From positions 124,001-188,000 of the forward strand of contig CAJTDX010000001.1 in NCBI GenBank assembly GCA_910575155.1: a DNA stretch of 64,000 nt, read 5' to 3'. The position numbers were made by a program, and so were the translations under genes. Source of the DNA: Lachnospiraceae bacterium. GTDB taxonomy: Bacteria; Bacillota; Clostridia; Lachnospirales; Lachnospiraceae. Below the pieces are notes generated by a model. That model saw only the letters and a program-made list of their open reading frames with translations. It was not told the DNA's origin and ran no database searches. Of this stretch, positions 12,627 to 61,006 are shown one piece after another (the stretch's first letter is position 1; each line of letters begins with the position of its first letter).

Positions 12627-12767
12627 ACCTTTTCCTCCTCTTCTTTGTCAGGTTATACATTGATTTTAAAATAATTCCTGAACAAAAGCAAGCCAGGAGC
12701 GGATATTCGTAATATCTTTTGCCAAAGCTTTTGTCATACGCCATGCGCTGCAAATATTTCCTCCAAA

Positions 12768-12819: not shown

Positions 12820-12865
12820 ACAAATATATTTTTTATACGAAAGTAAAAGAAAGGAACATGAATGT

Positions 12866-44213: not shown

Positions 44214-44357
44214 TATTTTTTCACAGCAGAAATTTTATAAAATTATAAGAAGACGGTTAAGAAAATGCAGAAAACGTCCGATATACATGTCAAATACATG
44301 GAGTGTTTATACCCCCGTGCATCTGCACGATTTCACGGACGAAAGGAGGGGATTTTC

Positions 44358-45656
44358 ATGCCGACGATTGACACTGCTTATCACTATTATTTAAGCACCT
44401 ATGCCAAGCAGTCGACTTCCCGTTATGATTCGCATAAAAAAAGTGAACTGCGAACAATCTATAATAATATTGTAAAAATTAATAAAGATTCCCCTTTGTA
44501 TAAGATAAAGCGTTCAGAGGATGTCCAGAAATTTGCGATCGACATCAAAGAAAGCACGCGCATTATCAAAAATGTAGTTGCCTCTCTCTCTGACGCAGAG
44601 GAAGGAATCGGAAATGCTTTTCAGAAAAAGCTTGCTTTTTCATCTCAGGACGATGTCGTTTCCGCCAATTATTTGGGCGGCAGTCATTATTCTGAAGATT
44701 CGGATAACTTTACCATTGAGGTTCAGGGTCTGGCAACTCCCCAGATTAACCAGGGGGCTTATTTAGATAAGAACCGTTTAAATCTTAAGCCCGGCACCTA
44801 TTCTTTTGATTTGGAAAATAATACATCGGCTTACGAATTCCAATTTACAATCAATCCTGATGATACGAATTTTTCCACCCAGAATAAGCTTGCGAACCTG
44901 ATCACCAATGCAGATATCGGTCTGAAAGCCTCTGTTGTGGAAAATGCAGACGGTTTAAGTTCTCTGCAGATTGAATCCCTGGCAACCGGTATTAGCCCTG
45001 ATGATGTATTCCTGTTTTCCATATCGCCTCAGGGCAGCCACGATTCCATGGCTGCAATTGACGCTTTGGGCATCGATCATGTGTCGCAGGAAGCGCACAA
45101 TGCCGTTTTTCTCCTTAACGGCACAGAGCAGATGGCGTATGAGAATACGTTTCTGCTGGACAACAATTTTGAGTTAACACTTCATGGCACCAGTCCTGTA
45201 GGACAGCCCGCAGTTATTGGTTTTAAGACCAATGCAGACGCTATGGCGGAAAATATCCAGACATTGGTGGATTCCTATAATTCCGTTTTACACACGGCTA
45301 ATAAGTATTCCGGTTCGCAGCCTCAGAGCGTCCAGCTCTACCGCGATATGAGCGGCACTGCTTTTGCTTACCAGAAAAGTCTGGAAAATATCGGGCTTAT
45401 CGTAGCAGACAACGGTGAGATTTCCATAGATAAAGATGCGCTGACAGAAACGGTTTCCAGCGAAGATTACGAGGATAAACTTTCCGTACTCAATGATTTT
45501 AAGAATCTGCTGAACATGAAAGCGAACAATGCCTCACTGGATCCCATGCGTTATGTGGATAAGATTCTTGTAACCTATAAGAATCCCGGAAAAACGTTTG
45601 TAACCCCTTACATTACCTCCATTTACTCAGGTATGATGATGGATGAATATTGTTAA
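44358..45656 (+). CDS. FliD-like flagellar filament cap/hook-associated protein
   Basis: 432 residues. The C-terminal part has FliD_C features (ADAMAENIQTLVDSYNSVLH, KSLENIGLIVADNGEISIDK, DALTE). The centre contains a domain typical of FliD/hook-associated proteins (GLATPQINQGAYL, YEFQFTINPDDTN). The N-terminus (~1-100) is Ser/Lys-rich and does not show the usual FliD D0 start, and the protein is shorter than typical clostridial FliD (~500). It may be a divergent cap or a related filament protein. RBS GAAAGGAGG. Diverges from rpmG. Confidence 0.7.
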   Translation: MPTIDTAYHYYLSTYAKQSTSRYDSHKKSELRTIYNNIVKINKDSPLYKIKRSEDVQKFAIDIKESTRIIKNVVASLSDAEEGIGNAFQKKLAFSSQDDVVSANYLGGSHYSEDSDNFTIEVQGLATPQINQGAYLDKNRLNLKPGTYSFDLENNTSAYEFQFTINPDDTNFSTQNKLANLITNADIGLKASVVENADGLSSLQIESLATGISPDDVFLFSISPQGSHDSMAAIDALGIDHVSQEAHNAVFLLNGTEQMAYENTFLLDNNFELTLHGTSPVGQPAVIGFKTNADAMAENIQTLVDSYNSVLHTANKYSGSQPQSVQLYRDMSGTAFAYQKSLENIGLIVADNGEISIDKDALTETVSSEDYEDKLSVLNDFKNLLNMKANNASLDPMRYVDKILVTYKNPGKTFVTPYITSIYSGMMMDEYC

Positions 45657-45855: not shown

Positions 45856-46638
45856 TTAAGAATTAAACTGTAAAAGCTGTACAACTCTTCCATTCTCTTC
45901 TTCCTGTTTCTTCTGCATCATGATCTTGTATTCCTCCAGCAGGCTGTTCTTCTTCATATCAGAAACCGCCTTGCCGATATCGAGATCTTCAATACGGCTG
46001 CGCGACGCCGTTGTATTGAGCGATGCATAGGAATTGAAATTCATGGTATGATCCAGACGGTTATAGGCGGCGCCCATATCTCCTCTTGCTGACGATACCT
46101 GATCCAACGCCTTGTCAATCACAGAGAGATCAAAATCGCCCGTCACATCAAAGTCAGCAATCCCCAACGCCTCAAGAGTGGCATTCGGCATATTGATATC
46201 CATTCCGCCGCCGTCCGGTGAAGAAGCCACATGTGAACTTCCCATACTTCCATCCAGCAGGTTCATTGTATTAAACCGGGTATTCTTTCCCGCATCAGAG
46301 ATCGCCCCTTTCAGCTGGTCAATCTCCTGCTGCATCATCTTGCGCTCAGAATCACCATAAATGGCTGTGTTAGACGCCTGTACGCCCAGTTCACGGATAC
46401 GCTGCAGGGAATCTGCAATTGTAGAAAGTCCGCCGTCCGCTACATTTACCATATCCTGGGACGTCGCTGCATTTCTCCTTCCTACGTCATATCCATTGCT
46501 TTGTGACTTAAGTTTCTCCGCAATTGCCAGACCTGCGGCGTCGTCCGCCGCTGAATTAATCTTCTTCCCACTGGAAATCTGGCGGTAATTTTGATATAAA
46601 TTCCTGCTGCTGGCATTGCTGATACTGGAAATACTCAT
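45856..46638 (-). CDS. Flagellin (short form)
   Basis: 260-residue filament subunit. The D0/D1 N-terminal helices are complete (YQNYRQISSGKKINSAADDA, AGLAIAEKLKSQ, LSTIADSLQRIRELGVQASN). The C-terminal D1/D0 segment is present (GDMGAAYNRLDHTMNF, ending VVQLLQFNS). The central variable region is reduced to a few tens of residues around SSHVASSPDGGGMD, so surface-exposed D2/D3 domains are essentially absent. Lies 59 nt after the glycosyltransferase gene at 46698 and is the last of a co-oriented series of glycan genes. RBS AAAGGGGG. Confidence 0.93.
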   Translation of the reverse strand: MSISSISNASSRNLYQNYRQISSGKKINSAADDAAGLAIAEKLKSQSNGYDVGRRNAATSQDMVNVADGGLSTIADSLQRIRELGVQASNTAIYGDSERKMMQQEIDQLKGAISDAGKNTRFNTMNLLDGSMGSSHVASSPDGGGMDINMPNATLEALGIADFDVTGDFDLSVIDKALDQVSSARGDMGAAYNRLDHTMNFNSYASLNTTASRSRIEDLDIGKAVSDMKKNSLLEEYKIMMQKKQEEENGRVVQLLQFNS

Positions 46639-46672
46639 AGGTGTTCCCCCTTTCTAAGGTTCTTTTTCCTTC

Positions 46673-46701
46673 ATTATAACAAGCGGCATAAGATAATTCA
46701 A
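46673..46701 (-). promoter_or_regulatory. Sigma-A-type promoter for flagellin
   Basis: On the minus strand TTGAAT (46696-46701), a 17-nt spacer and TATAAT (46673-46678). It overlaps the last codons of the preceding glycosyltransferase. No TAAA/GCCGATAA-like sigma-28 element was seen. Confidence 0.6.
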
Positions 46702-47825
46702 GAAAATTTTTCCTGTTCCAGCCGTTTCCTTGCCGGGGCATAATCCTCGCACTTTCTATAATATGCCCTTGCCTGCTCTGTATTTCCAAGGCATTCTAAG
46801 ATTACGCCGATATTATAGTTTGCGGCGTAAGAATTTACTCCCGCACTTCTGCAGTCCCTGTGCCGCTGCGCCCGTTCAAACTCCGCAACCGCCTCGTCAA
46901 AGCGGGCGTTTTTCATATAAATCAATCCCATAAGGAACTGAAAATCTGCGCTTGTGCCAAACTCTTCATAAATGTTTTCAAAAAAAAGCGCTTCCTGCTC
47001 CTGCCCGCTGTTCAGCAGCGCATAGCCGTATGTCTCCACCATGTCGATTACATACTCCAATTTGGGGTTCAAATCAAAAGAAAGTCCCTGGGCAAAATAC
47101 TCGCAGGACCGCCGATACTCTCCCGCCATATAGTAACTTTTGCCGAGCTGGTACAGCAGATATGGAATCTTTCCTTCCAGTTCAGCCGCCCCTGTAACGT
47201 CACCGTTGTTCCTGCGCATCTCCTCTGCCACAGCCTGTACCTGGGCAAGCTCTCTGTCCAGAAGTAAAATATTTCGCTGCGTTTTCTGCTTCTTTTCTTC
47301 CGGCGTTAAATCGTAACCGGTATGTAAAAAGACCAGCGGCGAGAGCCAGGTCTGGTAATCTTCTCCTTCCTCAATCCCCACAATCTGCTCATGAATCCTG
47401 CCCTCATAATGGAACCTCCTGCGGTCAAAAATCCGGTTCACCCATTCCCGGTTCTCCTGCCGCACACCGTCTCTCATAAATACGTTCCGTCTGCGGATAC
47501 GTCCCACTGCATGAGGATTCCGGCCCGCCTGGTTTTCCAGTTCCTTCCATCCGCTCTCCGGCAGAGGATCTAAAAACTCATCGCTGTCCACCACTAAAAC
47601 CAGATCGTTCGCCGCCTTTGACACCGCATAATTTTTGGCCGCTGAAAAATCGTCGCACCAGGCAAAATCATAAACGCTGCCAGTATACTTTTCTGCGATC
47701 CCGCGGGTTCTGTCAGAGGATCCCGTATCTACCACCACCAGTTCCGCCCCGCTGCCCGTTAAGGATTCCAGACAGCGCGCCATATTTTTTTCTTCATTTT
47801 TGGCAATTATACATACCGATATCAT
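46698..47825 (-). CDS. Family 2 glycosyltransferase with C-terminal TPR region
   Basis: 375 residues. The N-terminal GT-A domain (~1-200) begins ISVCIIAKNEEKNMARCLES and has VVDTGSSDRTRGIAEKY and the metal-binding DxD in LVVDSDEFLDP. The C-terminal half is helical, with TPR-like repeats (LGKSYYMAGEYRRSCEYFAQ, ARAYYRKCEDYAPARKRLEQ). Such GT2-TPR proteins often modify glycoproteins or surface polymers in Firmicutes. Start 47825 lies 1 nt after the upstream gene's stop and 59 nt before flagellin, suggesting flagellin as acceptor (inference). Confidence 0.85.
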   Translation of the reverse strand: MISVCIIAKNEEKNMARCLESLTGSGAELVVVDTGSSDRTRGIAEKYTGSVYDFAWCDDFSAAKNYAVSKAANDLVLVVDSDEFLDPLPESGWKELENQAGRNPHAVGRIRRRNVFMRDGVRQENREWVNRIFDRRRFHYEGRIHEQIVGIEEGEDYQTWLSPLVFLHTGYDLTPEEKKQKTQRNILLLDRELAQVQAVAEEMRRNNGDVTGAAELEGKIPYLLYQLGKSYYMAGEYRRSCEYFAQGLSFDLNPKLEYVIDMVETYGYALLNSGQEQEALFFENIYEEFGTSADFQFLMGLIYMKNARFDEAVAEFERAQRHRDCRSAGVNSYAANYNIGVILECLGNTEQARAYYRKCEDYAPARKRLEQEKFS

Positions 47826-47826
47826 T

Positions 47827-48996
47827 TTATTCCTTTCCCGCAAGCTCAAACATCTGCTTTACCCGATTTTCATAAGAAAATAATTTCTGTACCTTTAAAA
47901 ATCCCTGATATGCAATTTCCTGACGTTCTCGTTCATGAGATAAATAGTACTGCACCTTTGCCAGCAGCTCTTCTTTACTTGCATAAAGCGCCAGCTCTTT
48001 GCCATCCTCAAACTGCTCCGCAAGCTCCGTCTGGTAATTCGACAGAAGAAATCCTCCCGCTCCCATAATATCCAGCGCCCGCAGAGGGACGCCGCTTTGA
48101 ATAGACCTGAGCGTGATATTCAGGTTGATTTTAGAATGCCTGAACACCCGGGGCATTTCCTGATTATACTCCACCGTTCCGCCTGCTTCTGCCCCCGGCG
48201 TCAGATGCATATCGGATGCGGTGTACAGGGTAAGGCGGAAATTTTCAGAGAGACTGTTAAGAACAGAAATCCGTTCTGCTGAAGTAATTTTTTCATTGAG
48301 CATTGCGGCGTACAATTCACTCTGTGAAACGGCATAAACATCCGGCATACTCATGCCGACACAGGAAGCCAGCTTCTCAACCACGTCTCGCGTCAAAAGC
48401 TCCTCCACAAAATTATACCCATACACAAGCTGCTGGGTCTGCATGACGCCTTGCAGATACCCCTTTAAGTAATCCGGCAGATAATAAATCTGGTCATAAC
48501 GGTTATTCTCATAGAGGCTTCCCACAAAACTGACGTCCGCCTGCTCCTGCCCGTTCTCTTCGTATTCGGGCTGCGGCTTTCCCAGAAGCTCACAGAACTT
48601 TCTGGTATTGACTGCCAGAGGAAAATGGTACAAATGCGGGATGCCAAGGGACTGAAGCTTCAAATACTGAACCCTGTCAAAGACAAAGATGCGGTTACAT
48701 TCACTTTTGGCCGCTGGAGAGTACAGCGTCCAATGCGGGCAATCATAGGTCCAGGAAATATACGTTATCCCAAACTGTTCCGCAGCTTTTGCAATCAGCG
48801 GAAAAAAATTAAATGAAAAAATCCCGTCGCAGGCGTATTTTTTCACCACCGCGGAAAGCTGCTGCGCAAATGCTTCGTCTGTTTCATAGTCCTGAAAGGG
48901 AATATTGCATTTGATCAGCTCATACCCAAGACCAGTCAGCGCCTGCGCCATATCTTCAGTCGAATTTTCAAACCATGTATAATATAAAATTCTCAT
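47827..48996 (-). CDS. CgeB-family glycosyltransferase
   Basis: 389 residues, GT-B-like. N-terminal DUF3880-like half (MRILYYTWFENSTEDMAQAL, GIFSFNFFPLIAKAA, YDCPHWTLY) and C-terminal Glyco_trans_1_2 half (RHSKINLNITLRSIQSGVPL, RALDIMGAGGFLLSNYQTEL). This is the CgeB/spore-maturation-protein architecture, found in protein and surface glycosylation loci. Paralogous to the genes at 49031 and 51300. Weak RBS (GAGAAT) just upstream. Confidence 0.85.
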   Translation of the reverse strand: MRILYYTWFENSTEDMAQALTGLGYELIKCNIPFQDYETDEAFAQQLSAVVKKYACDGIFSFNFFPLIAKAAEQFGITYISWTYDCPHWTLYSPAAKSECNRIFVFDRVQYLKLQSLGIPHLYHFPLAVNTRKFCELLGKPQPEYEENGQEQADVSFVGSLYENNRYDQIYYLPDYLKGYLQGVMQTQQLVYGYNFVEELLTRDVVEKLASCVGMSMPDVYAVSQSELYAAMLNEKITSAERISVLNSLSENFRLTLYTASDMHLTPGAEAGGTVEYNQEMPRVFRHSKINLNITLRSIQSGVPLRALDIMGAGGFLLSNYQTELAEQFEDGKELALYASKEELLAKVQYYLSHERERQEIAYQGFLKVQKLFSYENRVKQMFELAGKE

Positions 48997-49030
48997 ATCT
49001 TTATTCTCACTTATCTAGTTCCGCTTACGT

Positions 49031-50671
49031 TCACGTCCTGTGTTCTTCGTTTATTTTCAAAAACTGTTCCGCCCTGTCCGCCCACAAATGCCCGCTTCCC
49101 GCCTTTTTAAAACCATTGGCCGCAATCTGCTGCAAACGCTGCGGATTTGCAAGAAGTTCCTGCACCCTGCCCGGAAGCCGGTCAATCTCTTCCAGATGAA
49201 ACAATACAAGATCCTGCCCGTCTATAAATTCTTCCTTCAGCCTTCTGCTGCTGTCGGAAAGGGCCGCAGACTGACAGAGCATACTGTTCAGGAGGCGTTC
49301 CGTAAGACCGTCTTTATGCCACGACATAATGTTGAGGGAAATTTTGGACTGCTGCATAATCTGCAGACTTTCGCTGAGATTCACCTGCGGATGGCGTTTC
49401 AGACATGGATGCTGTGCAAAAGGCGCGTAATTCCAGGTATCTCCATATACGTGCAGCTCTATTCCGGCGTCCAGAAGTACACGTATAATCTTCTCCCGGT
49501 AGTAACTCATAATACATACAAACGTATACCGCATTTGAAAAAACAATTGAAAAAACTCATCTTCTCCCAGCTTCAGCCCGCGTTCTTTTAGTATCTGCGA
49601 CAGAGATTCTTCGGCTGTTTCATCCGGACAACGCCGCATCCTTCTCATAGCATGAGCAGCCAAAAAGCGAAACGAGGGCGCATATGCGTACAGTTCTGGA
49701 AGCAGGCCCCGGTAATTAATATAAGATCCCACAAAACTGACGTCATACGGCCTGTTTGCCAGCCAGGGAGAAGAAACCGTTTCCTCCGGCAGCATACCCG
49801 CAGGCGGAAAATATATGCAGTCTTTTATGTTCCTGTAAGATCTTCTGGCAAAATTAAGGTAATTTCTGTCATGCGTCAAAAGATAATAATGCTCCGGTCC
49901 ATGCTCCATGTGCTTTTTCATCATTACAGGATGATCGAAGATCACATTATATTTGGGACCAATGATTAAATCATGCAGGTTTGTCTTTCCATCCTCCATC
50001 ATAATTGAAAACACGTACGTCTGCATACCAATAATTGCCTTAAAACGACGGCCAATATATCTGCCCAGCGCCTGATGCCCCTCCTTTTGGGCGTCAAATA
50101 CCTCTACCGCCTGTCTGCAGTTTCGCAAAGCCTTCACCAGTTCGTCCGCAAATTGATTCAGGGTATTATAACAGACATCTGATTGGCGGTAAACCAAAAT
50201 GGGAGCGGTATCATCCTCTATCGCATAGTATTCGTCTCCATGGGAAATCATTTGTTCCAGCCATGCCAGAGCTTCTTTCGGGTCCGGCAATTGCGAAGCC
50301 TGCTGCAAAAGAGCCTCCATGACGGAATCAAAATACCCGGCAGAAAGAAGCTCTTTTTGATACTTTGCCGCAACAAAGGTATCGGTACGATAATTCTCCC
50401 AGTCTGAAGCCTGCAATAGACGATCCTCTTCGGTCTGAGCAGATGAAATCCCCACTGCCCGCAAAGGATAGTTCTGCACTGCGCGCAGCAAAAATTCATA
50501 AGTTTGTTTGGCGGCGAGCTTATGATTGAACTCCCCGGTCTTACCATAGCACGCCTGCGGGCATTCTATTGTGCCATCCGCCCAGCGTTCATCCAGCAGA
50601 AGCTCCATAAAGGTTACATTTTGCTCTTCTCCCTCAGGAAGACGCGCCGTATAGCAGATTATCTCTTCCAT
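49031..50671 (-). CDS. CgeB-family glycosyltransferase with N-terminal extension
   Basis: 546 residues. The C-terminal ~340 residues are CgeB-like: MMEDGKTNLHDLI then YNVIFDHPVMMKKHMEHGPE, RPYDVSFVGSYINYRG, LHVYGDTWNYAPF, SKISLNIMSWHKDGLTERLL. The N-terminal ~200 residues (MEEIICYTARLPEGEEQNVT) are a helical domain without recognised homology. Start 50671 follows AAAGGAGG; an upstream frame to 50812 lacks one. Its fold and motifs match the front half of the 784-residue protein at 51300. Confidence 0.85.
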   Translation of the reverse strand: MEEIICYTARLPEGEEQNVTFMELLLDERWADGTIECPQACYGKTGEFNHKLAAKQTYEFLLRAVQNYPLRAVGISSAQTEEDRLLQASDWENYRTDTFVAAKYQKELLSAGYFDSVMEALLQQASQLPDPKEALAWLEQMISHGDEYYAIEDDTAPILVYRQSDVCYNTLNQFADELVKALRNCRQAVEVFDAQKEGHQALGRYIGRRFKAIIGMQTYVFSIMMEDGKTNLHDLIIGPKYNVIFDHPVMMKKHMEHGPEHYYLLTHDRNYLNFARRSYRNIKDCIYFPPAGMLPEETVSSPWLANRPYDVSFVGSYINYRGLLPELYAYAPSFRFLAAHAMRRMRRCPDETAEESLSQILKERGLKLGEDEFFQLFFQMRYTFVCIMSYYREKIIRVLLDAGIELHVYGDTWNYAPFAQHPCLKRHPQVNLSESLQIMQQSKISLNIMSWHKDGLTERLLNSMLCQSAALSDSSRRLKEEFIDGQDLVLFHLEEIDRLPGRVQELLANPQRLQQIAANGFKKAGSGHLWADRAEQFLKINEEHRT

Positions 50672-50832
50672 GAAAAGTTCCTCCTTTGGAAATACTGTAA
50701 CAGAAGCCGCAAATCTTCTTGAAAAAAATGTTCCAGAACTGCTTCCACCTGTTATGGAATACAATCCTGAAACATATCGTCTGATTTTCAAATATGATTC
50801 CTTCTGAAACAAAATGCTCCTGTAAGATCCCG

Positions 50833-51198
50833 CTATGCCAGCGCTTTCTCGATATAACCTTCCAGTTTCTCTGCAAAAGGAAGAAGCTCCTCCTCAATTA
50901 CCCCGGCAAGTTTCTCATCCAGCTTAGACACATAAGCGTCGTTGATATGAGAAATCATCTCGTTCAAAGCATCCTTGGAAACCTGTTCTTCCTTCTCATT
51001 CAGCAATGTCAGGGTTCCGTTGATTACCTGAAGCTCCCAGTTTATGCCGCGGAAAATATGATCTACATATTCCTGCGTATCTTCCTTCTTTTCTCCCTTT
51101 AATTCCGGTACAATCTCCGCTAACGCCTTACAAATCTTTGGATTATAGTCCTTTAATGCCTCCAAAGCCTCTACCTGCTCCTTACGATTATCTTCCAT
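50833..51198 (-). CDS. Small all-helical protein of unknown function
   Basis: 121 residues, strongly acidic and alpha-helical throughout, with no signal peptide or cysteine-rich motif. It begins MEDNRKEQVEALEALKDYNP and ends EKLEGYIEKALA. Size and helical character recall a cytoplasmic chaperone or adaptor (for example FliS-like flagellar chaperones), but no signature of such a family is present. It lies between two CgeB-type genes in the flagellin-proximal glycan cluster, so a role in presenting substrate is possible. Start supported by AAGGACGA upstream. Confidence 0.7.
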   Translation of the reverse strand: MEDNRKEQVEALEALKDYNPKICKALAEIVPELKGEKKEDTQEYVDHIFRGINWELQVINGTLTLLNEKEEQVSKDALNEMISHINDAYVSKLDEKLAGVIEEELLPFAEKLEGYIEKALA

Positions 51199-51299
51199 GA
51201 TATTTTCGTCCTTTCTTATTAAAATACTCTGATATATATATCGTAAGAAAAGCTGTTTTACCTTAGCTTGTTTTACACTTTTATTAACGGCCTTATCGT

Positions 51300-53654
51300 C
51301 TATCCCTGTTCTAACCCTTCGCAGTCACTGGTTCTTTCCGCCTTCTTATATATTTCATAAACCGCCTGAAGCGCCAGCGAAGGATCGGCAATCACTTCCG
51401 GATCTGCATTCATCAGCATTACTTTAATCATCACCCAGGACACCTGCCGCTGCAAAATATAATCAATATCTTCCTGTTTTTCTTCCCCCCGGGCAAAACG
51501 GCCCAGGCATTCCATCACGTTCCGGAAATGGCTGATCCATTCCGTTAAATCCCATGAATTATGGGACAGACCGGAAATATTACGCTGTTCTTCTTCCTGA
51601 GCGATATATAAAAGCAGCTCGATAATCGGAACTTCCCCTCTGATATCAGACAATTCCAGCCGCACATCGGGGCGCACCTTCAAATATTCATAAAACATCT
51701 CTCTGGCCTGGGTAATCTGTTTCAATTTCACAAGCTGGGTCATGGCAAGCTTTAATTCCATGGTTTCCGCTTTCTCCGAAGTGAGTCCCACATTTCCCTC
51801 ATAGACTTTCAGACCATTCTTCTCCACCCAGATTTTTACCATCTGCTCAGACAGAAAACCAAATACCCGCTGATTATACAGGTCATAGGACTCGACATTG
51901 ATCCGTTTTTCCACCTCAAAAAGAATATCAAACAGCCAGGCTGCGTATTCCTGAAACAACTTGCGCGGAGCCACCATCAGATTTCCATAATAATACGTAT
52001 TTCCTTCCATGGCGTTCTTAAAATACGGTTCGTATTCCGGGTACTTTTCTTTGATTACTTCCCCTACCGCCAGCAAATCACGGGCATTATGCGCCTCTGC
52101 AAAATAATCCAGATAGCTGGCGTCCGCCTGGATGTTATCCGACACAATGATATCATAATCCTTTAAAATCTCTTCGTATTCCTGTCTGCTCAGAAGCTGC
52201 CGCTGCTCATTGAGGAAAAAACGGCGGTAATGGCAGATTCCAACCACGTCTGCATCGTGCTCATTTTTCCATACCCAGTAGACTCCCGTAAGTTCCCCAT
52301 AGTAATGATTCCAGCGGGAAATCGAATCCCCCGTATCGTCTCCCAGATAGCCCAGATCTTTCGCGCCCGCCCTTCCCACATGGAGCGGAATGTAGATACT
52401 GTCCTGCGGCTCGCTGAACTTTCTATGGGTCATCGTAAATATTTTTATCTTCATAGGTTCCTCCGTTTTTACCATGTCTGCTCTGTCTGTTTGCAGAGAA
52501 CCGTGCTCTATGAGATCTGCAAGCTGATACGCCCTGTGTTTCCAGGTCTGAGCGTCCCTGGCGTACTCATAGCCCCTTCCGGCAATCTCTTTTAATTCCT
52601 GCGGCTTTTGCAGATACTTCTTTATCTTTCCCGGAAGATCCTGCAAATACTCTAAGGAATACAAAAGGACCTCTCTGCCGTCCGTGAGGGTGCGGTCTGT
52701 ATACTCGCTGCCGTCTGTCAGACTGACGCTCCCATTGAGCATTGCAGAATATATCCGGTCATGTACCCCGGACTTAAACCAGGGCATGACATTCAGCACG
52801 ATCCTGGCGTCCGCCATAAGAGGTATGGTTTCATCAAAGGGAATCCTGTCATGAATAATCAGATTCTCCTGTTTACAGTCCAGATATTGCCAGCCCTCTC
52901 CATAAATATGAATTTTCACATCCTGATCTGCAAGCGTCCGGACTACTTCGGCGCGGGCGCGGCTTCTTAACATCCCGTCCATATCCTGAAACAAACGGAT
53001 CGTATCGCGCAGGTCTTCTTCCGGCAGAACAATACCTTTTTTCTTCAGGCAAAACTCCATTCCCTGTTCCAGCGTCAGAGACGTTTGCCTGCACAATAGC
53101 TGATAGCAGTCCAGCCAGACCTGGCGCAGCCCCTCTCCCAGTCCCCGGATATGATATTCTACATTATTATCAACCAGATAGGCTCCGGTAAACAAAAGAT
53201 CCATGGAGCGTTCTTCAAACGGTATCTGCGGCCCCTGGCTGCGGATTCCCGCAAGCGGCAGAAAAAAGCTGCGCACCTTTCCAGAATAAAAACGCTGAAT
53301 GAATTTCTGATGATACTCGTCCACACACAGAAACGCCAGACGCCGGATGGGAAAAATAATCGCCGCATGGTAATATACCGGATGGTCTACAATAAAATCA
53401 TAACAATCCACATCCAGTTCGTTCCAGATACTCGCCCTGTCTTTTGTGAGAAGGTTTAAGCCTGCATGATTAAAAAACAGCGCCGCTGTCCTGCCCTGTT
53501 CCGTAAATTTATAGATATCTTCTCTTGCCTGGGATTCTTTCACCATATCCGCTCTCAGAACCTGCCATCCCAGCTCCTTAAATCCCTCAGCCATCAAATT
53601 TGCAAATGTCCTTAAGGAATCCGTATCTGATTCAAAAATTATAATTTTTTCCAT
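51300..53654 (-). CDS. Two-domain glycosyltransferase: CgeB-like fused to DUF4422
   Basis: 784 residues. Residues 1-~380 are CgeB-like (IWNELDVDCYDFIVDHPVYY, VKIHIYGEGWQYLDC, ARIVLNVMPWFKSGVHDRIY). Residues 401-~640 are a DUF4422 glycosyltransferase (KIKIFTMTHRK, YIPLHVGRAGAKDLGYLGDD, ELTGVYWVWKNEHDADVVGI, CHYRRFFLN). A helical C-terminal part (~650-784) is unassigned. At the domain junction the sequence GGAGGAACCT precedes an in-frame ATG (52454, Met401), a well-placed ribosome binding site inside the gene. The fusion may therefore also yield the DUF4422 part alone. Confidence 0.85.
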   Translation of the reverse strand: MEKIIIFESDTDSLRTFANLMAEGFKELGWQVLRADMVKESQAREDIYKFTEQGRTAALFFNHAGLNLLTKDRASIWNELDVDCYDFIVDHPVYYHAAIIFPIRRLAFLCVDEYHQKFIQRFYSGKVRSFFLPLAGIRSQGPQIPFEERSMDLLFTGAYLVDNNVEYHIRGLGEGLRQVWLDCYQLLCRQTSLTLEQGMEFCLKKKGIVLPEEDLRDTIRLFQDMDGMLRSRARAEVVRTLADQDVKIHIYGEGWQYLDCKQENLIIHDRIPFDETIPLMADARIVLNVMPWFKSGVHDRIYSAMLNGSVSLTDGSEYTDRTLTDGREVLLYSLEYLQDLPGKIKKYLQKPQELKEIAGRGYEYARDAQTWKHRAYQLADLIEHGSLQTDRADMVKTEEPMKIKIFTMTHRKFSEPQDSIYIPLHVGRAGAKDLGYLGDDTGDSISRWNHYYGELTGVYWVWKNEHDADVVGICHYRRFFLNEQRQLLSRQEYEEILKDYDIIVSDNIQADASYLDYFAEAHNARDLLAVGEVIKEKYPEYEPYFKNAMEGNTYYYGNLMVAPRKLFQEYAAWLFDILFEVEKRINVESYDLYNQRVFGFLSEQMVKIWVEKNGLKVYEGNVGLTSEKAETMELKLAMTQLVKLKQITQAREMFYEYLKVRPDVRLELSDIRGEVPIIELLLYIAQEEEQRNISGLSHNSWDLTEWISHFRNVMECLGRFARGEEKQEDIDYILQRQVSWVMIKVMLMNADPEVIADPSLALQAVYEIYKKAERTSDCEGLEQG
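52452..52470 (-). promoter_or_regulatory. Internal ribosome binding site at the CgeB/DUF4422 junction
   Basis: On the minus strand ACGGAGGAACCT is followed directly by the ATG of Met401, in the main reading frame. Spacing is about 5 nt. It coincides exactly with the start of the DUF4422 domain. Confidence 0.5.
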
Positions 53655-53672
53655 AAAAACCTCATATGTTTT

Positions 53673-54332
53673 CTACTTTCCGACTCCGTTAAAATCATTT
53701 TTCACCCATGCCAACGCCCGTTCATAGTCATTCACCGTATCAATTTCACGGGTACGAAGCTCTAAAAACGGCACCGGAAGGTACGGCTCAATCAATTGAA
53801 ACACATGACCCGTTCCATTTTGCATTTTACGGCTTTTCATCTGTGTAATCCCGTTCCACTCATACGTGCCCATTGTTCTGGAAAAAGAACTCACAAATTC
53901 TGTTCCCTCTTCCTGATAAGTCTGAAGCAGCCAGGGATCGTCTGTCACAGGCTCTCCCCCGCTTACAAATTCATGGTCGCAGGCGAGCACCTGTTCCAGA
54001 TCCTCTGGATGCACCAGCAAATCCCCATCCAGAGATAAAATAAATTCCCCGGCATACTTTGCCGCCAGGGCGACGCTGGCTCCCGTTCCTGTCTCCCTGT
54101 ACTGATGATTAAACACAAATAAAATATCATCCCTGTATTTACGCGCCGTCTCAATCACGGCCTCTGCCTGATAGCCTACCACAACCCGAATATCGCGCTC
54201 ATGTTCCAGCATCTCCAGATGTCTTATAATCAAAGGCTTCCCATCAATCTCCAGCAATGCCTTAGTGGTTCCAAGACCCAGTCTGTTTCCCATGCCGGCG
54301 CAGCTTATAATTACCGTTCTCGAAACTGCCAT
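53673..54332 (-). CDS. Sugar-nucleotidyltransferase-like (NTP_transferase) protein
   Basis: 219 residues. Nucleotide-binding start VIISCAGMGNRLGLGTTKAL (the usual GxGxR-type loop with the Lys of TKALLEIDGKP), RVVVGYQAEAVIE, and the metal-binding aspartates in ILSLDGDLLVHPED. Expected to activate a phosphorylated small molecule as a nucleotide diphosphate. Homologous proteins occur in flagellin modification clusters next to HAD, methyltransferase and glycerophosphotransferase-like genes, as here. ATG 54332 follows AGGAGG; a GTG 3 codons earlier overlaps that site. Confidence 0.85.
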   Translation of the reverse strand: MAVSRTVIISCAGMGNRLGLGTTKALLEIDGKPLIIRHLEMLEHERDIRVVVGYQAEAVIETARKYRDDILFVFNHQYRETGTGASVALAAKYAGEFILSLDGDLLVHPEDLEQVLACDHEFVSGGEPVTDDPWLLQTYQEEGTEFVSSFSRTMGTYEWNGITQMKSRKMQNGTGHVFQLIEPYLPVPFLELRTREIDTVNDYERALAWVKNDFNGVGK

Positions 54333-54344
54333 CTGTTCCACCTC

Positions 54345-54947
54345 CTACAAAAGCCTTTCCAGAAATTCCACCAGCTTTTCTTCCTGATAAACCGCATGGC
54401 TGGCAGAAGCCAGAACTGCCGGAGAAATGCTGCGTACGCCGCCATATCCGATGCCGATCTCTGCCGCCTGGATGATCTGTGCGTCATAATTGCCGGCGCC
54501 CACAGCCACGCATGGCAGATTCATCTGCTTCATGACCGTATTCTGATCCAGAATACTTACTATATTCTGAATATAATCATGCTCTGCAGACGCTCTGGAG
54601 CAAAAGATACGGTCTTCCATTCCTGTTTTTTCTATCAGTTCTCTGATCCAGACGTCAGGAAGAACCGTCACAATATGGCATCTGTGCCGATGGATTCTGA
54701 TAAACTCCGCCAGCTTTTCGTTGAGCGGCAGCCCGCCCGACAGCCTGCGCAACAGGCTTAGCGGAACTTTTTTCAGCAGCTCTGCTTTCTGCAAAAAACT
54801 CTGCTTGTATGGCAGCTCCCCTTGTACGGTGCGTTCTGTCAAAGAACACATCTGCTCATATATTCCCAGCTTCCTGGAAATGGCAGGTAACATTTCCTGT
54901 CTGGTTATTACGGCGTCCAGCTCAAACAAAAACACATATCCGCTCAT
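54345..54947 (-). CDS. HAD-superfamily protein with degenerate catalytic motifs
   Basis: 200 residues, HAD-IB (SerB-like) fold. Motif I reads LFELDAVIT: the normal nucleophile Asp is Glu9 while the second Asp (Asp11) is kept. Motif II is HIVTVLP (Thr94). Motif IV reads VGAGNYD, with Ala151 in place of the first Mg2+-binding Asp and Asp155 kept. Two key acidic positions are therefore altered and normal phosphatase chemistry is unlikely. The equivalent gene in the C. difficile flagellin module is annotated phosphoserine-phosphatase-like. 12 nt upstream of the nucleotidyltransferase gene start. Confidence 0.75.
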   Translation of the reverse strand: MSGYVFLFELDAVITRQEMLPAISRKLGIYEQMCSLTERTVQGELPYKQSFLQKAELLKKVPLSLLRRLSGGLPLNEKLAEFIRIHRHRCHIVTVLPDVWIRELIEKTGMEDRIFCSRASAEHDYIQNIVSILDQNTVMKQMNLPCVAVGAGNYDAQIIQAAEIGIGYGGVRSISPAVLASASHAVYQEEKLVEFLERLL

Positions 54948-55005
54948 TTTTCCTCCCTGTTCTTACAGCCTCTGCAAAGAAGTTCCTGTTCTCTGCATCC
55001 TGACT

Positions 55006-55755
55006 TTACCGTTCCAGTATATAAAAGTACTGCGCTGTTTCCTTACGGTTATTTAAAGCCTCCTCCTCAAACAGGAATCCTTCCCGGCGCACCGTAAACC
55101 CTTTTCTTATAAGAGCCTCTTCCAGAAACTCCGCAAATTCCTGACGCGTCCTGTAGATTGCGTTATATTGATCGTCCAGCTCTTCGGAAAAGAAATCTTT
55201 TAACGTAAGCCTTTTCTTAATCCCAATTGGTTCCCGGATACAGATTAGAGAATGCGGCTCGCTGCTCCTCTCAACCTGCTCCAGAACGCTTTTTACTTCT
55301 CTGTCATTCAGGTATAACAGTATTCCCACCAGCAATACCCTGTTAAACTTTCCCAGTCCATGTTTCTCTAATGTTACTTCCAGCTCCTCTGCCGCTCCCT
55401 CCAAAAAGGAAAAATGCGCTCTGGTATTTCTCTGTTTTGCAATTTCAATCAGCTCCCTGCTGAAATCCAGTCCGCAATACGCGCTGATCTCTTCTGGCAG
55501 GGCGTCCGCCCATCTTCCAATACCGCAGGCCACGTCCAGTACTTTTGCGTGTGCATCTAATGTTAATAAAGGACAGAGCTTCTCTGTTTCTTTTTGATTT
55601 CTCTGCTGTACCAGCTCTTTATTATGATCCTGGTACATTGTCACCGCATACGGATTTTCGCCTGAAAATTTTTCCGACCGGTTTTTAAAAAAACGTTTCG
55701 TCTCTTTATAATCAATATCTGTTTTTTTCTCCGCTATTCGCATAGTGTCCGCCAA
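55006..55755 (-). CDS. Class I SAM-dependent methyltransferase
   Basis: 249 residues. Motif I VLDVACGIGRWADAL, acidic motif II YCGLDFSRELIEIAK, and FNRVLLVGILLYLNDREV (post-motif). In the type-A-like flagellin modification locus of C. difficile a methyltransferase is thought to methylate the linking amino acid; the same role is proposed here by context. The TTG start at 55755 is favoured because GGAAGG, overlapping the preceding gene's end, is 8 nt away; the first ATG is 12 nt further on. 3 nt after the upstream gene. Confidence 0.88.
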   Translation of the reverse strand: MADTMRIAEKKTDIDYKETKRFFKNRSEKFSGENPYAVTMYQDHNKELVQQRNQKETEKLCPLLTLDAHAKVLDVACGIGRWADALPEEISAYCGLDFSRELIEIAKQRNTRAHFSFLEGAAEELEVTLEKHGLGKFNRVLLVGILLYLNDREVKSVLEQVERSSEPHSLICIREPIGIKKRLTLKDFFSEELDDQYNAIYRTRQEFAEFLEEALIRKGFTVRREGFLFEEEALNNRKETAQYFYILER

Positions 55756-55758
55756 ATG

Positions 55759-57207
55759 TTATCCTTCCATCAGTTTTAATAGATCTCTCACAATGAAGTC
55801 AACGGCAGGACAGCCGTTTTTCCCTTTATAATCCAGGGTATCGCCAAAAGCTCTGCGCCGCTCTTTCGCCATGCTGTCCTGCCCTTTCAGAATCACATGT
55901 TCCACAAACTGTTCAATCCTCATATAATCTTCCCCTTTTACCTGGTGATAACCCAAAATCAGCCGCTCTCCCAGGCTGTTAAACGCCTGTTCTTCTCTGG
56001 TAAGAAACAGCAGCGGTTTATCTACATACATGTATTCCCCCAAAAAAGAAGCAGAGTCCATAATCATGCCGTCGGACGTCGCAAAAATATCCAGATAGCT
56101 TCCCTCCTCCACTACTTTGGCATTGGGCAGGGCGTTCCACATATCCAGATAAGCGTCATATTCCTCAGAAGACTGAAACAAATGAGATTGTGCCGCTTTC
56201 CAGCGCAGATTCGGATGCGGTTTAAAAATAAAGGAAATCTGATCCTGATATTTCTGTGCCAGATACAGCCAGAACCAGGCGTTTTTCTCAAAAGTAGCAT
56301 ATTTTACGACAGCCGTCTCCTCCAGAGAATGATGAGGCGCAATAATCAGACGCTTAGGATTATGATCCCAGGCCGCCTGCGGAAATTTCCAGATCTTTTG
56401 CAATTCCTCTGTCGTGTAGTCCCTTTTCTTCTGGAAGAAATCCATCTTAACATATCCGGAATAACTGATATTTTTGCCATGCAGCAATTCATATTTCTTA
56501 TAACCTGCTAAATTCAGCTCGGAATCTGCATATATTTTCCACTGCAGATTTACAAATTCCTTATTGTAAACAAATTTGGGGGCATAACTTCTGTCCTGGT
56601 TATCCGCCACATAAAGCCCGTATGGTATATAACAGTTTAATATGTGAAGCGGAAAATTTTCAATCTGGAAAGGCTCCGGCAGAGAATGATACCAGGGCGT
56701 AGAATGCATGACGATATCCGGCAGCCCGCCGACGGCTTCCCATCCCTGGCAAATATCTTCTTCTGCATCGTATATGCGCCTCACATCATAATGGTTCTGT
56801 TCAAAAAAGCTGCGCGTCTCCGCCTCTGTTTTCCGCCTGCTTGCTCTCTCCCTGTCCATCAGAGGACAGACCACAACATAACATTCCAGCCGTTCATCCT
56901 TTGCAAGCCTGCGGTAAAGATCTTCCGACGCCCATTCTGCTGCCGAAATTGAGAGGAAGGCGATCTTTACCTTCTGTCTTTGCTCCGTCTTCCTTTTGAT
57001 ATGATATGTTCCAAATGAAATAATCCGCTCATATAGCTGCTCATACAATTTTTCTCCATGCTCCAGCGACCGGGCAAAATAGAACAATGCCGCCAGATGT
57101 CCATAGCGATAAGCTTCCGGCGGGGCAGAGGGTTCTGCAAACGCTCCTTTGTCTATTCCATCCATAAGCTCTTCCACACGTTTTACATATAAATCTTGTG
57201 CATTCAT
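55759..57207 (-). CDS. CDP-glycerol glycerophosphotransferase-like protein
   Basis: 482 residues. The C-terminal ~280 residues have the TagB/TagF family layout: LIIAPHHSLEETAVVKY, FIFKPHPNLRWKA (HxxPH-type and PHP motifs) and the signature ATSDGMIMDSASFLGEYMY with YVDKPLLFL. An N-terminal ~200-residue Rossmann-like region precedes it. The family transfers glycerol-phosphate or related phosphosugars from CDP donors. Together with the upstream cytidylyltransferase fusion this suggests a CDP-linked donor. Short 88-nt gap to the GT-D gene. Confidence 0.85.
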   Translation of the reverse strand: MNAQDLYVKRVEELMDGIDKGAFAEPSAPPEAYRYGHLAALFYFARSLEHGEKLYEQLYERIISFGTYHIKRKTEQRQKVKIAFLSISAAEWASEDLYRRLAKDERLECYVVVCPLMDRERASRRKTEAETRSFFEQNHYDVRRIYDAEEDICQGWEAVGGLPDIVMHSTPWYHSLPEPFQIENFPLHILNCYIPYGLYVADNQDRSYAPKFVYNKEFVNLQWKIYADSELNLAGYKKYELLHGKNISYSGYVKMDFFQKKRDYTTEELQKIWKFPQAAWDHNPKRLIIAPHHSLEETAVVKYATFEKNAWFWLYLAQKYQDQISFIFKPHPNLRWKAAQSHLFQSSEEYDAYLDMWNALPNAKVVEEGSYLDIFATSDGMIMDSASFLGEYMYVDKPLLFLTREEQAFNSLGERLILGYHQVKGEDYMRIEQFVEHVILKGQDSMAKERRRAFGDTLDYKGKNGCPAVDFIVRDLLKLMEG

Positions 57208-57295
57208 CTCTTAAATCTCCCTGTAAGTTACTGAGAAAGCCTCCCGCTTTCTCAGAATAAATGGTCTTGCAGACCGCCTGACGGCAGAATGAAAA

Positions 57296-58414
57296 TTACT
57301 GCAGATCCGCAATAATCTGCCCTTCATACAGCGGATCGTGCAGTTCTTCCGCTGCGTCGTCCCCCTCGACTTCATTATTATATTTATACCGTACAGGGAG
57401 CCTTTTTCCTTCTCCTGCAAGAAACCACTCGTATTCCAGGTCGAGATGCCCGATGTCCAGCGCCTGGTACCCTTCCGCTGTCAGGTCATAGGCGAGCACC
57501 CCTGCCGCCGGACCCATGGCGATCAGAAACAGCGTATTCTCTCTGGCATGTTCCAGCGCAGATTTTAAGATATCGTCATAACGGTCAAAAGAGCTGGTTG
57601 CCGGAGCCAGGATGCGTTTTATAGTCCCCGCCCCGTCCAGTAAATCATTGCCGGTCCCCATCCTGGTCTGCGCTCCTTCCACAATGATTACACTGCGGTC
57701 TTTCCAGATATCTTTGATACGTTCAAATCTTTTTTTCGGCGCGTCTGTCATCCAATCCTTATACATGACATAAGGACGGGATACGTAGGCGTCATAATAT
57801 ACCCTGTCATGTTCCAGCAATTCCATATGCTGTTTTCTGGTTCCTCCATTGGTCATATAGATCCGTATCGCATTCGCGGACGATTCTGTAAAATCCTGGA
57901 GGGAACCATAATTATTGGCAATTGCAATCAGCATCCTGGGATGACGGCTGTAGAGCACCTCTTTTAACCTGCTTCCCAGCCGTTCATCCAGCCTTTGAAA
58001 TTTATGACGTTCTAATTTTATGATCTGTGAAAATTCCCCGTCTCCAAAGCGGGCCATTGACTTTCCGCTGCCGATAATTTCTTCAATCGTTTCCTTTGCG
58101 CTTCTGATTACCGGAAAATAATAGTTTTCTCTCTTTAACAGCGGATCTAACAGCTCATATGGCATATTTTCACTATTGCCCCGCACCACGCCGAGATTAA
58201 TATCTATGGTAGTCTGATCTTCTACTACTTTTGAGAGCTGGAGCATCATCTGCCTGTTAATCTCATATAATTCCCGTATTGCCGAAAGCAGCGCGGCGTT
58301 ATCTTTTTTAGCCGACTGATTTTCTTCCTGCAATTTCAAAATCTGTCCCTCCAGACAGGAGATCTGTTCCTGAAACTCTTTCATCCGTTCTTCCATAATA
58401 TCATCCCTCATCAT
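57296..58414 (-). CDS. GT-D-type glycosyltransferase with N-terminal coiled coil
   Basis: 372 residues. Residues ~10-65 are a coiled coil (heptads in EFQEQISCLEGQILKLQEEN). From ~110 the GT-D/DUF1792 domain is visible: KSMARFGDGEFSQI (the conserved sugar-nucleotide motif), RHPRMLIAIANNYGSL, DRSVIIVEGAQTRMGTGNDL and FLIAMGPAAGVLAYDL. This fold extends O-glycans on serine-rich adhesins in streptococci, and its presence here supports protein glycosylation. The TAATG stop/start overlap with the Gfo/Idh gene implies coupling. Confidence 0.85.
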   Translation of the reverse strand: MMRDDIMEERMKEFQEQISCLEGQILKLQEENQSAKKDNAALLSAIRELYEINRQMMLQLSKVVEDQTTIDINLGVVRGNSENMPYELLDPLLKRENYYFPVIRSAKETIEEIIGSGKSMARFGDGEFSQIIKLERHKFQRLDERLGSRLKEVLYSRHPRMLIAIANNYGSLQDFTESSANAIRIYMTNGGTRKQHMELLEHDRVYYDAYVSRPYVMYKDWMTDAPKKRFERIKDIWKDRSVIIVEGAQTRMGTGNDLLDGAGTIKRILAPATSSFDRYDDILKSALEHARENTLFLIAMGPAAGVLAYDLTAEGYQALDIGHLDLEYEWFLAGEGKRLPVRYKYNNEVEGDDAAEELHDPLYEGQIIADLQ

Positions 58415-59379
58415 TAAACACGTTCTGTTCCTTTGGAAACCTTAACCTCGAAAAACTTCTCCATCACGCCCGCGATGGCAATACTCATATGTTCTTTTGC
58501 TTCGTATTCTTTCTTATGCGCCTGAATTTCCTTTACAAATGCCTGCAGCTCGTACTGCAGTCCGCTTCTCTCATATTCATAAGTATGTATTTCTTTTTTG
58601 CCGGGATCTTCAAAGCGCACCTCAAACTCTTTCGTCATCCACCAGGGCGCTTTGACATAAATATATCCTTTGGTACCGGAAATAATCAGCTCGCCTTCCG
58701 ATTTGACGCCGACCCCTGTTTTACCCAGACCAAATCCCTGTTCATAAAACAGATTAATTTTAGTAAATAAATCTACGCCTTTCTCATCTTTGATAGACTG
58801 GAATTGTACGTCTTTGGGGTTCCCGCCAAAAATCTTCACCATCGGAAGCAATACATAAGTCCCATACTCTATCACGCTTCCTCCATATACAGGATCTGTC
58901 CGTTCTCTTCCCGCCGGATCGGTCAGCCGGGTAAAACAGGCCTCCACGTCTCTTACAGTTCCAATGACCCCGCTGCCGGCCGTCTCAAGCAAACCATTAA
59001 ATCCCGGACAATAGGCAGTTTTGATTGCCTCCATCAAAACCAGCCGCTTTTCCTTTGCAATGGCAAATAAATCCTCCGCTTCTGTTCTGGAAAATGCCAT
59101 AGGTTTTTCACAAAGTACGTGTTTCTGTTTCTGCAGCGCTTTTTGGGCATACGACACATGCGTCTCATGAGGGGAAGCGATATAAACGGCGTCCACCTCT
59201 GACAAAAACTGCTCCCAATCATCCGAGGCCAGGCCAACCTGATATGTCCCGGCAAATCTTTTTGCGCTGCCGATATGAGGATTATAAATACATACCGCCT
59301 GTATTTCAGGTACCAGCTCTATATCCTGCATAAATCTTGCTGCAATCCGTCCCGTCCCTATCACACCTAATCGAATCAT
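58414..59379 (-). CDS. Gfo/Idh/MocA-family oxidoreductase (complete catalytic motif)
   Basis: 321 residues. Nucleotide-binding LGVIGTGRIAARFM, the signature CEKPMAFS with the catalytic Lys intact, and KTAYCPGFNGLLE. Members oxidise or reduce sugars or polyols linked to NAD(P). It is a close paralogue of the second half of the neighbouring fusion protein (shared VDAVYIASP, IKTAYCPGF, DVEACFTRL, GVGVKSEG), so a tandem duplication. Overlaps the fusion's stop by 4 nt (ATGA). Confidence 0.88.
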   Translation of the reverse strand: MIRLGVIGTGRIAARFMQDIELVPEIQAVCIYNPHIGSAKRFAGTYQVGLASDDWEQFLSEVDAVYIASPHETHVSYAQKALQKQKHVLCEKPMAFSRTEAEDLFAIAKEKRLVLMEAIKTAYCPGFNGLLETAGSGVIGTVRDVEACFTRLTDPAGRERTDPVYGGSVIEYGTYVLLPMVKIFGGNPKDVQFQSIKDEKGVDLFTKINLFYEQGFGLGKTGVGVKSEGELIISGTKGYIYVKAPWWMTKEFEVRFEDPGKKEIHTYEYERSGLQYELQAFVKEIQAHKKEYEAKEHMSIAIAGVMEKFFEVKVSKGTERV

Positions 59380-60716
59380 TTTTTCTTCCTTTTCTCCATA
59401 AATATTTCTGTAATTTCCGACATTGCCACAATTTCTTCTTTTGTGAGTTTATATGTATTTCTCTCCAAACCATTAATCTTAGAGGCAAATTCACTGATCT
59501 CATAGCGCAGTCCGTCCCCCTGGAATTTCGGCTCAAAGACATCGATCACGTTCGGATTTTCATAGCGTACCATATATTTTCTCGTCAGCCACCAGGGCGA
59601 TTCCGCCAGCACATAGCCGTTCGTGCCTGCAATAACCAGCTGTCCCTCTGATTTAACGCCGACTCCGCACTTTGCGGTTGCCATGCCCTGTTCGTAAATC
59701 AACTGAATCTTGGTGTACAAATCCATACCTTTTTCATCGAGAATACTGTATATCTCCACTTTTTTATATTGCGTGCCCAATAATTTAAAAATTGGAAGCA
59801 GGGTATACGCCGCATATTCCAGAAAGGCTCCGCCAAACTCCGCGTCCGTGCGCTCCCTGGATTCAACATCCGCAAGCCTGGTAAAACAGGCCTCCACATC
59901 TTTAATCTCTCCGATTTTACCGCTTTGGGCCGTGTTCAGAAGCTGTTGGAAACCAGGACAGTAGGCTGTCTTAATCCCCTCCAGCAATACCAGATTTTTT
60001 TCCTCCGCCAAGTCGTATAATTCTTCCACGTCACATTTTGACATTGCAACCGGATTCTCGCTCAGCACATGTTTGCCTGCCTGCAGAGCCTGTTTTGCAT
60101 ATCCGTAATGCGTTTCATTGGGCGAGGCAATATAAACGGCGTCAACGTGATCTAAAAACTGCTGATATTCTTCATGGTATACTGGAATTTCATATTTTTC
60201 GCGGAACAGATCTCCGCTTTCTCTTTCCGGGTTATAGGCGCAGACGATATGGATCCCCGACACATATTTGTCCTCCTCCAGAAAACGCGGCGCCATGCGT
60301 CCGGTTCCTACAATCCCTACATTTATAATCTGAAATCTGCTCTTGCGCAGCATGGTGGAAGAAATGTCCGGGGTGCGTTCCAGATAGATTACCTGGCAGA
60401 AATTATTCAGATAGTCGAAGGTTCCCATCCAGTCTGAGCCAACGGTAAAGATATCAATATTATATTTCTGTATATCTTCAATCTTCTGTCCCTCATGGTC
60501 TTCAATAATAATCTCATCCGCCAGCCCTGTTTTCCTGACATTTTCAATGCGCTCTAAAGTAGAATCGATCACATTGACTTTGCCCCGCATTTCATCAAAA
60601 TGCTCCGTGGTTACACCGACAATTAAATAATCTCCCAGTTTCCTGGCTCTGGACAATATATTTAAATGACCCTGATGAAACAAATCAAACGTTCCATAAG
60701 TTATTACTTTTTTCAT
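59376..60716 (-). CDS. Cytidylyltransferase-Gfo/Idh fusion protein
   Basis: 446 residues. Residues 1-~130 are a glycerol-3-phosphate cytidylyltransferase (TagD)-like domain: GTFDLFHQGHLNIL with HxGH, DYLIVGVTTEHFDE, TVGSDWMGTFDYL and the RTPDISSTML C-terminal motif. From ~137 a Gfo/Idh domain follows (VGIVGTGRMAPRFL). There the usual EKP is ENP (HVLSENPVAM; codon AAT), so the catalytic Lys is lost. It has the most upstream start codon of the co-oriented array. Start 60716 follows AGGAGC. Activation of a polyol phosphate by CTP coupled to an oxidoreductase step is the simplest reading. Confidence 0.85.
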   Translation of the reverse strand: MKKVITYGTFDLFHQGHLNILSRARKLGDYLIVGVTTEHFDEMRGKVNVIDSTLERIENVRKTGLADEIIIEDHEGQKIEDIQKYNIDIFTVGSDWMGTFDYLNNFCQVIYLERTPDISSTMLRKSRFQIINVGIVGTGRMAPRFLEEDKYVSGIHIVCAYNPERESGDLFREKYEIPVYHEEYQQFLDHVDAVYIASPNETHYGYAKQALQAGKHVLSENPVAMSKCDVEELYDLAEEKNLVLLEGIKTAYCPGFQQLLNTAQSGKIGEIKDVEACFTRLADVESRERTDAEFGGAFLEYAAYTLLPIFKLLGTQYKKVEIYSILDEKGMDLYTKIQLIYEQGMATAKCGVGVKSEGQLVIAGTNGYVLAESPWWLTRKYMVRYENPNVIDVFEPKFQGDGLRYEISEFASKINGLERNTYKLTKEEIVAMSEITEIFMEKRKKK

Positions 60717-61006
60717 GCGTATGCTCCTAACATTTTTCGGTTTTCTATTTTGGCAAACTTCACCATACAGCCTTTTTGCAGAAACAAAATCCATACTTAT
60801 AGATTTTACTTTGATTATAATCAGAATCAGTATAACACAGATTCAATTGATGGAAAATAAGAATTTTATAAAATCAGGATTTTAATGTTGTAAAAGACAT
60901 TCACGGATTCTTGTAAAAATGTGTATATTCTCTTTCTGGTACAAAGCGGACAAGCCCACTTCAACTTCATGAATCCCTCAGTCATAAGGGACATGGCCAT
61001 GCCGCG

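Follow-up and report, generated by a model that had tools for sequence, protein, structure and literature searches.

A putative flagellin glycosylation island in a Lachnospiraceae genome, with a type A-like four-gene module and an altered HAD protein

A stretch of 64,000 nt from the 4.19 Mb genome of a Lachnospiraceae bacterium (GenBank assembly GCA_910575155.1, contig CAJTDX010000001.1; G000:C1:124001-188000, hereafter the window) contains a short flagellin gene at the end of a long array of glycan genes, four adjacent members of which are, as judged by sequence and profile comparison, homologues of the type A flagellin modification set of Clostridioides difficile. We favour the reading that the array is a flagellin O-glycosylation island, the glycan of which would be built in the cytoplasm on the short flagellin paralogue before export, with a probability of about 0.6. 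The window is homologous to the type A module, yet, because its HAD protein has lost catalytic residues, it is not filed as a functional type A system.

The minus-strand array comprises 39 genes over 47.1 kb, is 94% coding and continues past the window to about G000:C1:216949. A first-pass annotation had drawn the locus at 45856-60716, with flagellin as the last gene of a long co-oriented series; all genes that it named were recovered as intact minus-strand frames, and flagellin (45856-46638) is indeed last by position, with a promoter-like sequence of its own, but the array extends beyond 60716. The genes with counterparts in C. difficile are the following.

45856-46638, minus strand: short flagellin paralogue, the presumed acceptor (Flagellin_N/C in Pfam)
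46698-47849, minus strand: GT2-TPR glycosyltransferase, CD0240-like (Pfam; 31% identity to the GT2-TPR after the Clostridioides-like fliC)
53673-54341, minus strand: nucleotidyltransferase (NTP; MobA-like NTP transferase in Pfam), CD0242-like (45% identity to the Clostridioides-like NTP, E 1.8e-67; motifs conserved)
54345-54947, minus strand: HAD protein, CD0241-like, catalytic residues lost (39% identity to the Clostridioides-like HAD, E 1.9e-48)
55006-55755, minus strand: S-adenosylmethionine (SAM) methyltransferase (MT), CD0243-like (36% identity to the Clostridioides-like MT, E 6.8e-46)
55759-57207, minus strand: cytidine diphosphate (CDP)-linked phosphotransferase (CDPT), distant CD0244 homologue (hhalign 97.4%, E 1.3e-11)

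The comparison locus was reached through the nucleotidyltransferase among Peptostreptococcaceae-like genomes and lies in a 4.3 Mb genome (G908; locus GC content 26%) in the order fliC, GT2-TPR, HAD, NTP, MT, CDP-transferase. Because its 290-residue FliC matched four peptides of C. difficile 630 FliC (PMC10714395) at 9/10, 9/11, 10/11 and 20/22 positions, G908 was taken to be Clostridioides or very near one. The window GT2 domain aligned to the GT2-TPR of this locus with an E-value of 5e-22, and CDPT, the most distant of the set, was weakly similar to its counterpart by blastp (E 0.048) and clearly so by the profile comparison listed above. Homologues of all five proteins of the C. difficile 630 type A locus (CD0240-CD0244; PMC4441256, PMC10714395) therefore stand beside a flagellin gene, in the order CDPT-MT-HAD-NTP in the window as against HAD-NTP-MT-CDPT in C. 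difficile, and the rearranged CD0241-CD0244-type set proposed by the first-pass annotation is upheld. The window differs from that locus in the loss of HAD catalytic residues, the short flagellin paralogue, the distant CDPT and the size of its array, which at 47 kb holds far more glycosyltransferase and sugar-nucleotide genes.

Family assignment of CDPT was less direct. Its match to Pfam Glyphos_transf (TagF/TarL family, PF04464) scored 21.3 bits, short of the 22.1-bit cut-off, and sequence searches of the PDB, singly or as a profile, returned nothing significant. The AlphaFold model (mean predicted local distance difference test score, pLDDT, 86.9) has a GT-B fold, matched equally well by a TagF/TarL wall teichoic acid polymerase and a UDP-GlcNAc 2-epimerase; identity to the TagF/TarL polymerases is about 10%, the Pfam score is under the cut-off and wall-polymer genes are absent nearby.

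The HAD protein (54345-54947) was not found by Pfam, but searches of NCBIfam and of the PDB matched it to phosphoserine phosphatases (such as 1f5s/1j97). Four of its catalytic positions are substituted (D9E, T13V, K135Q and D151A), each of them unchanged in the other nine of ten aligned HADs, so that its motifs read FELDAV, DQNTV and GAGNYD in place of FDLDxT, xK and GDG. The first Asp of HAD enzymes is the nucleophile; since this residue is replaced, the window protein should not transfer phosphate. The same residues are intact in the nearest relatives, X68 and G316, and in five Peptostreptococcaceae-like genomes, and no second HAD copy was detected in the genome itself at E 1e-3 with the intact G316 protein as query. 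A search of viral contigs for a relative of the HAD was likewise negative. The idea that the HAD had been lost in both lineages was dropped, as tblastn found an intact HAD in X68 (L057) at 12234-12836. Elsewhere, the module HAD beside fliC in L061 (L061:13946-14557) has Asn for the nucleophile and Asn for the motif IV Asp, apparently an independent loss of activity.

In the C. difficile model, the HAD (CD0241) makes phosphothreonine, and a HAD mutant lacks the cap and carries only the core sugar (PMC10714395). Intact HAD catalytic residues, needed for the cap there, are lacking in the window, and the step that makes the phospho-amino acid is probably dead here. It is accordingly doubtful that the type A pathway operates in this organism as modelled in C. 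difficile, and the flagellin decoration probably arises by a different route. The resemblance to the type A phospho-glycan module noted by the first-pass annotation thus holds at the level of homology, while a phosphodiester-linked N-methyl amino acid becomes uncertain, given the lost residues and the lack of a second copy.

It is conceivable, if unlikely, that the whole phospho-amino-acid branch has ceased to function, with no donor being made, NTP, MT and CDPT persisting as relics and flagellin keeping the rest of the glycan. The four changed HAD positions, the single HAD copy and the bare core sugar of the cd0241 mutant all favour this. However, the NTP, MT and CDPT frames are intact, the NTP motifs are preserved, and nonsynonymous divergence (dN) on the window branch is low for these genes (NTP 0.018, the lowest of eleven genes compared; MT 0.066; CDPT 0.064) and highest for HAD (0.115). 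MT, NTP and CDPT are under purifying selection. Moreover, a further relative, G969, keeps CDPT, MT and NTP although no HAD was found in its genome.

Under the preferred reading of a flagellin glycosylation island, we infer the following pathway, including its substrates, linkages and order of steps. GT2-TPR would place the first sugar on Ser/Thr of flagellin, and the CgeB, DUF4422 and GT-D transferases would extend the glycan with sugars supplied by upstream genes of the array. NTP would make a CDP-activated phospho-amino acid, MT would N-methylate it, and the CDP-transferase would attach the residue to the glycan through a phosphodiester, in line with the type A model of C. difficile. With the HAD dead, NTP might use a phospho-compound from ordinary metabolism, phosphoserine being the simplest guess; alternatively, the branch may be in the course of being lost while a TagD-Gfo branch supplies another CDP-linked group.

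An association with flagellin was evident across genomes. CDP-transferase was confined to the organism's own genome in a 146-genome sample of the order; a family search then found more, and the scan of named genomes yielded 75 loci. All 30 of the CDPT-carrying clostridial genomes checked (L057-L083, L085, L092 and L099) had Flagellin_N, compared with 100 of 200 in a family sample (Fisher p 8e-9, uncorrected for kinship). Flagellin or FliD was present within the fetched flank in L064-L068, L071, L078, L079, L082, L083, L098 and L109, and in L061 the module lies inside the flagellar operon, after fliD and fliS and before fliC. A distribution mainly in non-motile genomes or beside teichoic-acid genes, which the first-pass annotation had named as the pattern that would speak against its reading, was not found.

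Several observations weigh against the account given so far. Outside Clostridia, Flagellin_N was absent in L105, L107, L111 and L120, and other phyla (L107, L111 and L112) have CDPT-HAD-NTP triads that lack the methyltransferase, two of the three being in flagellin-free genomes (L107 and L111). The module is therefore not flagella-specific, and the transfer of CDP-amino acids to glycans may extend beyond flagella. The HAD frame is intact and dN is below dS (synonymous divergence) in every pair, so the protein may keep some role. Finally, the fold search with the CDPT model produced a tie between TagF (3l7k; Z 20.9, 346 residues, root-mean-square deviation (rmsd) 6.0) and UDP-GlcNAc 2-epimerase (4zht; Z 20.9, 333 residues, rmsd 4.0), the same two resemblances that are given for CD0244 (PMC10714395).

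The gene content of the array also bears on whether it could make a cell-wall or capsule polymer, the adjacent flagellin being incidental. Its sugar-nucleotide genes are like those of O-antigen loci, and it encodes LicD, TagD and TagF-like proteins, which are types that also serve in wall polymers. Yet in a hydropathy scan none of the 39 array genes encoded a protein with two or more membrane segments (a control permease gave six), which leaves the array without a flippase, a polymerase, an ABC exporter or any other multi-pass protein. This absence fits cytoplasmic flagellin modification better than a wall polymer. Together with the enrichment of CDPT genomes for flagellin and the flagellin that relatives, too, keep as the terminal gene of the array, the missing export genes make the wall-polymer explanation highly improbable.

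A cluster beside flagellin, as first annotated, was confirmed, but the flagellin concerned is not the main FliC. It is a divergent paralogue of 260 aa in which the N-terminal helix is shortened and the C-terminus altered; the genome has six Flagellin_N matches in all, this paralogue and FlgL among them. The main FliC sits elsewhere, at C1:260518, with DUF3880, LicD, PseB and PseC genes as its own neighbours. Three further features accompany the short flagellin gene.

44265-45656, plus strand: FliD-like protein, convergent with the short flagellin (partial match to PF07195 FliD_C)
46673-46701, minus strand: sigma-70-like promoter of flagellin, TTGAAT-17-TATAAT (same site in X68; TAAAAT version in G316)
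50833-51198, minus strand: conserved 121-aa helical protein between CgeB 2 and CgeB 3 (77-86% identical in five relatives)

The promoter-like site stands at an equal distance before flagellin in the window and in X68; as sites of this kind were not above chance over the whole region, its support comes from conservation. The FliD-like gene is the convergent neighbour of short flagellin also in G969 and lies near it in G316. Several Lachnospiraceae conserve this pairing of a short flagellin with a convergent FliD-like protein, separately from their main fliC/fliD, and the two may constitute a minor or specialised flagellar system. The same kind of short flagellin was also seen away from glycan genes, in G972, G973, G976 and G997.

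The 121-aa protein, predicted to be a four-helix bundle, was detected in 34 of 348 family genomes and lies next to a FliD-like gene in 7 of the 18 loci that were read. Sixteen carriers could be paired with genomes in the listed portion of the sample scored for flagellin, and all of them had flagellin (Fisher p 1.6e-5, an upper estimate of the association). Pfam returned no match for the protein, and helical bundles were all that a fold search of the PDB yielded (best E 0.083); a role as a chaperone or as an adaptor for the modification is conceivable.

These neighbours raise the question of the acceptor, which might be the main FliC, the FliD-like protein or the 121-aa protein, instead of or besides the short flagellin. 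The presence of other, longer flagellins in the genome, the scarcity of variable domain in the short one and the position of the 121-aa protein beside FliD-like genes lend this some weight. We nevertheless consider it doubtful, because short flagellin is constant as the last gene of the array, as it is in five relatives, and the main FliC has glycan genes of its own, including PseB and PseC.

Short flagellin, our presumed acceptor, belongs to a recurrent cassette with CgeB, GT2-TPR, the 121-aa helical protein and the FliD-like protein. X68 and G316 have the run from GT-D to flagellin in common with the window, G970 and G971 have GT2-TPR, CgeB 1, the 121-aa protein and flagellin, and G969 has CgeB 1, the 121-aa protein, flagellin and the convergent FliD-like gene. 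Contiguity of glycan genes with flagellin is thus found in relatives as well as in the 39 co-oriented genes here. Upstream genes vary between these relatives while the flagellin-proximal part is constant, an arrangement that resembles serotype loci with their variable periphery.

The module itself varies. CDPT, MT, HAD and NTP occur together in L057, L059, L060, L061, L063 and L080, and an Asp/Glu-type racemase (PF01177) joins the full set in L061 (13210-13932) and L063 (12289-13014). Racemases also lie near related CDP-transferases in L066 (3601-4326), L072, L087 and L095; none is part of the module in the window or in X68. A racemase in the module points to D-amino acids or to a substrate amino acid that is not L-threonine. 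In L066, TagD stands with MT and the racemase, without HAD and NTP. A single array in G970 (L179/L180; G970:C1:253457-276612) holds two type A-like sets, a divergent CDPT-HAD-MT and a CDPT-MT-HAD-NTP. A far-reaching version of the island reading, in which a conserved minor flagellar system (short flagellin, its FliD-like partner and the 121-aa protein) would bear a very large phosphorylated glycan with a CDP-amino acid cap made without the HAD step, and in which the racemase-bearing relatives may use other or D-configured amino acids, is in our view rather improbable.

The remaining features of the array within the window are listed below.

47827-48996, minus strand: CgeB-type glycosyltransferase 1 (DUF3880 and Glyco_trans_1_2, Pfam)
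49031-50812, minus strand: CgeB-type glycosyltransferase 2 (Glyco_trans_1_2, Pfam)
51300-53654, minus strand: CgeB-type glycosyltransferase 3 (Glyco_trans_1_2) fused to DUF4422 (Pfam)
57296-58414, minus strand: GT-D glycosyltransferase (PF08759, E 6e-79)
58414-59379, minus strand: Gfo/Idh oxidoreductase (Pfam)
59376-60794, minus strand: TagD-like cytidylyltransferase (CTP_transf_like) fused to Gfo/Idh (Pfam; TIGR01518 E 2e-29, under cut-off)
61148-62080, minus strand: hexapeptide acyltransferase (Pfam)
62097-63617, minus strand: WbsX-type glycosyltransferase, after which the array goes on past the window (PF14307, E 4e-110)

The expansion with extra glycosyltransferases and cytidylyltransferases described in the first-pass annotation is real according to Pfam, as are its three CgeB proteins, GT-D, GT2-TPR and two Gfo/Idh domains; the fusion of the third CgeB to DUF4422 had gone unmentioned, and the two parts are separate genes in G316. 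The TagD-Gfo/Idh frame has a likely internal start near 60716, and its one TagD-like domain is the ground on which a CDP-polyol phosphate, also suggested earlier, is possible.

Further upstream, the array carries heptose-type genes (GmhA, HddA and HddC-GmhB-like, all under NCBIfam cut-offs), RfbF and RfbH (both over them), a thiamine diphosphate (ThDP) enzyme, a TviB-like dehydrogenase and LicD. A nucleotidyltransferase fused to a HisC/CobD-like aminotransferase is encoded at L008:5401-7389 (G000:C1:188901-190889) and the LicD protein at L008:10166-11008; together they make a further phospho-linked substituent possible.

Related systems have been described. In Pseudomonas aeruginosa PAO1, the MT, HAD, NTP and phosphotransferase of the b-type glycan genes PA1088-PA1091 are reported as homologous to the C. 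difficile set (PMC11833859); set beside the window by description, PAO1 differs in having the phosphotransferase fused to a glycosyltransferase. Flagellin glycosylation islands of Geobacillus likewise place sugar-nucleotide and glycosyltransferase genes beside flagellin, but are smaller, with 13.4-30.4 kb and 11-23 proteins (PMC5109656) against 47 kb and 39 genes here. In the open-licence literature, we found no publication on type A-like modules in Lachnospiraceae and no report of the expanded island, the racemase and HAD-free variants or the short-flagellin neighbour. The kind of module is therefore already known, and the expanded island and its variants appear new within that literature.

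Within the literature surveyed, the proposed CDP-threonine pathway had been described only in C. difficile and P. aeruginosa, and the module now extends to many Lachnospiraceae of gut and rumen, and beyond them to other phyla. Natural variants, in which the HAD is intact, damaged or absent, a racemase is present or absent and TagD takes the place of NTP, make the assumed role of each enzyme, and that of the HAD above all, directly testable. Lachnospiraceae flagellins are important gut antigens, and their surface chemistry therefore matters.

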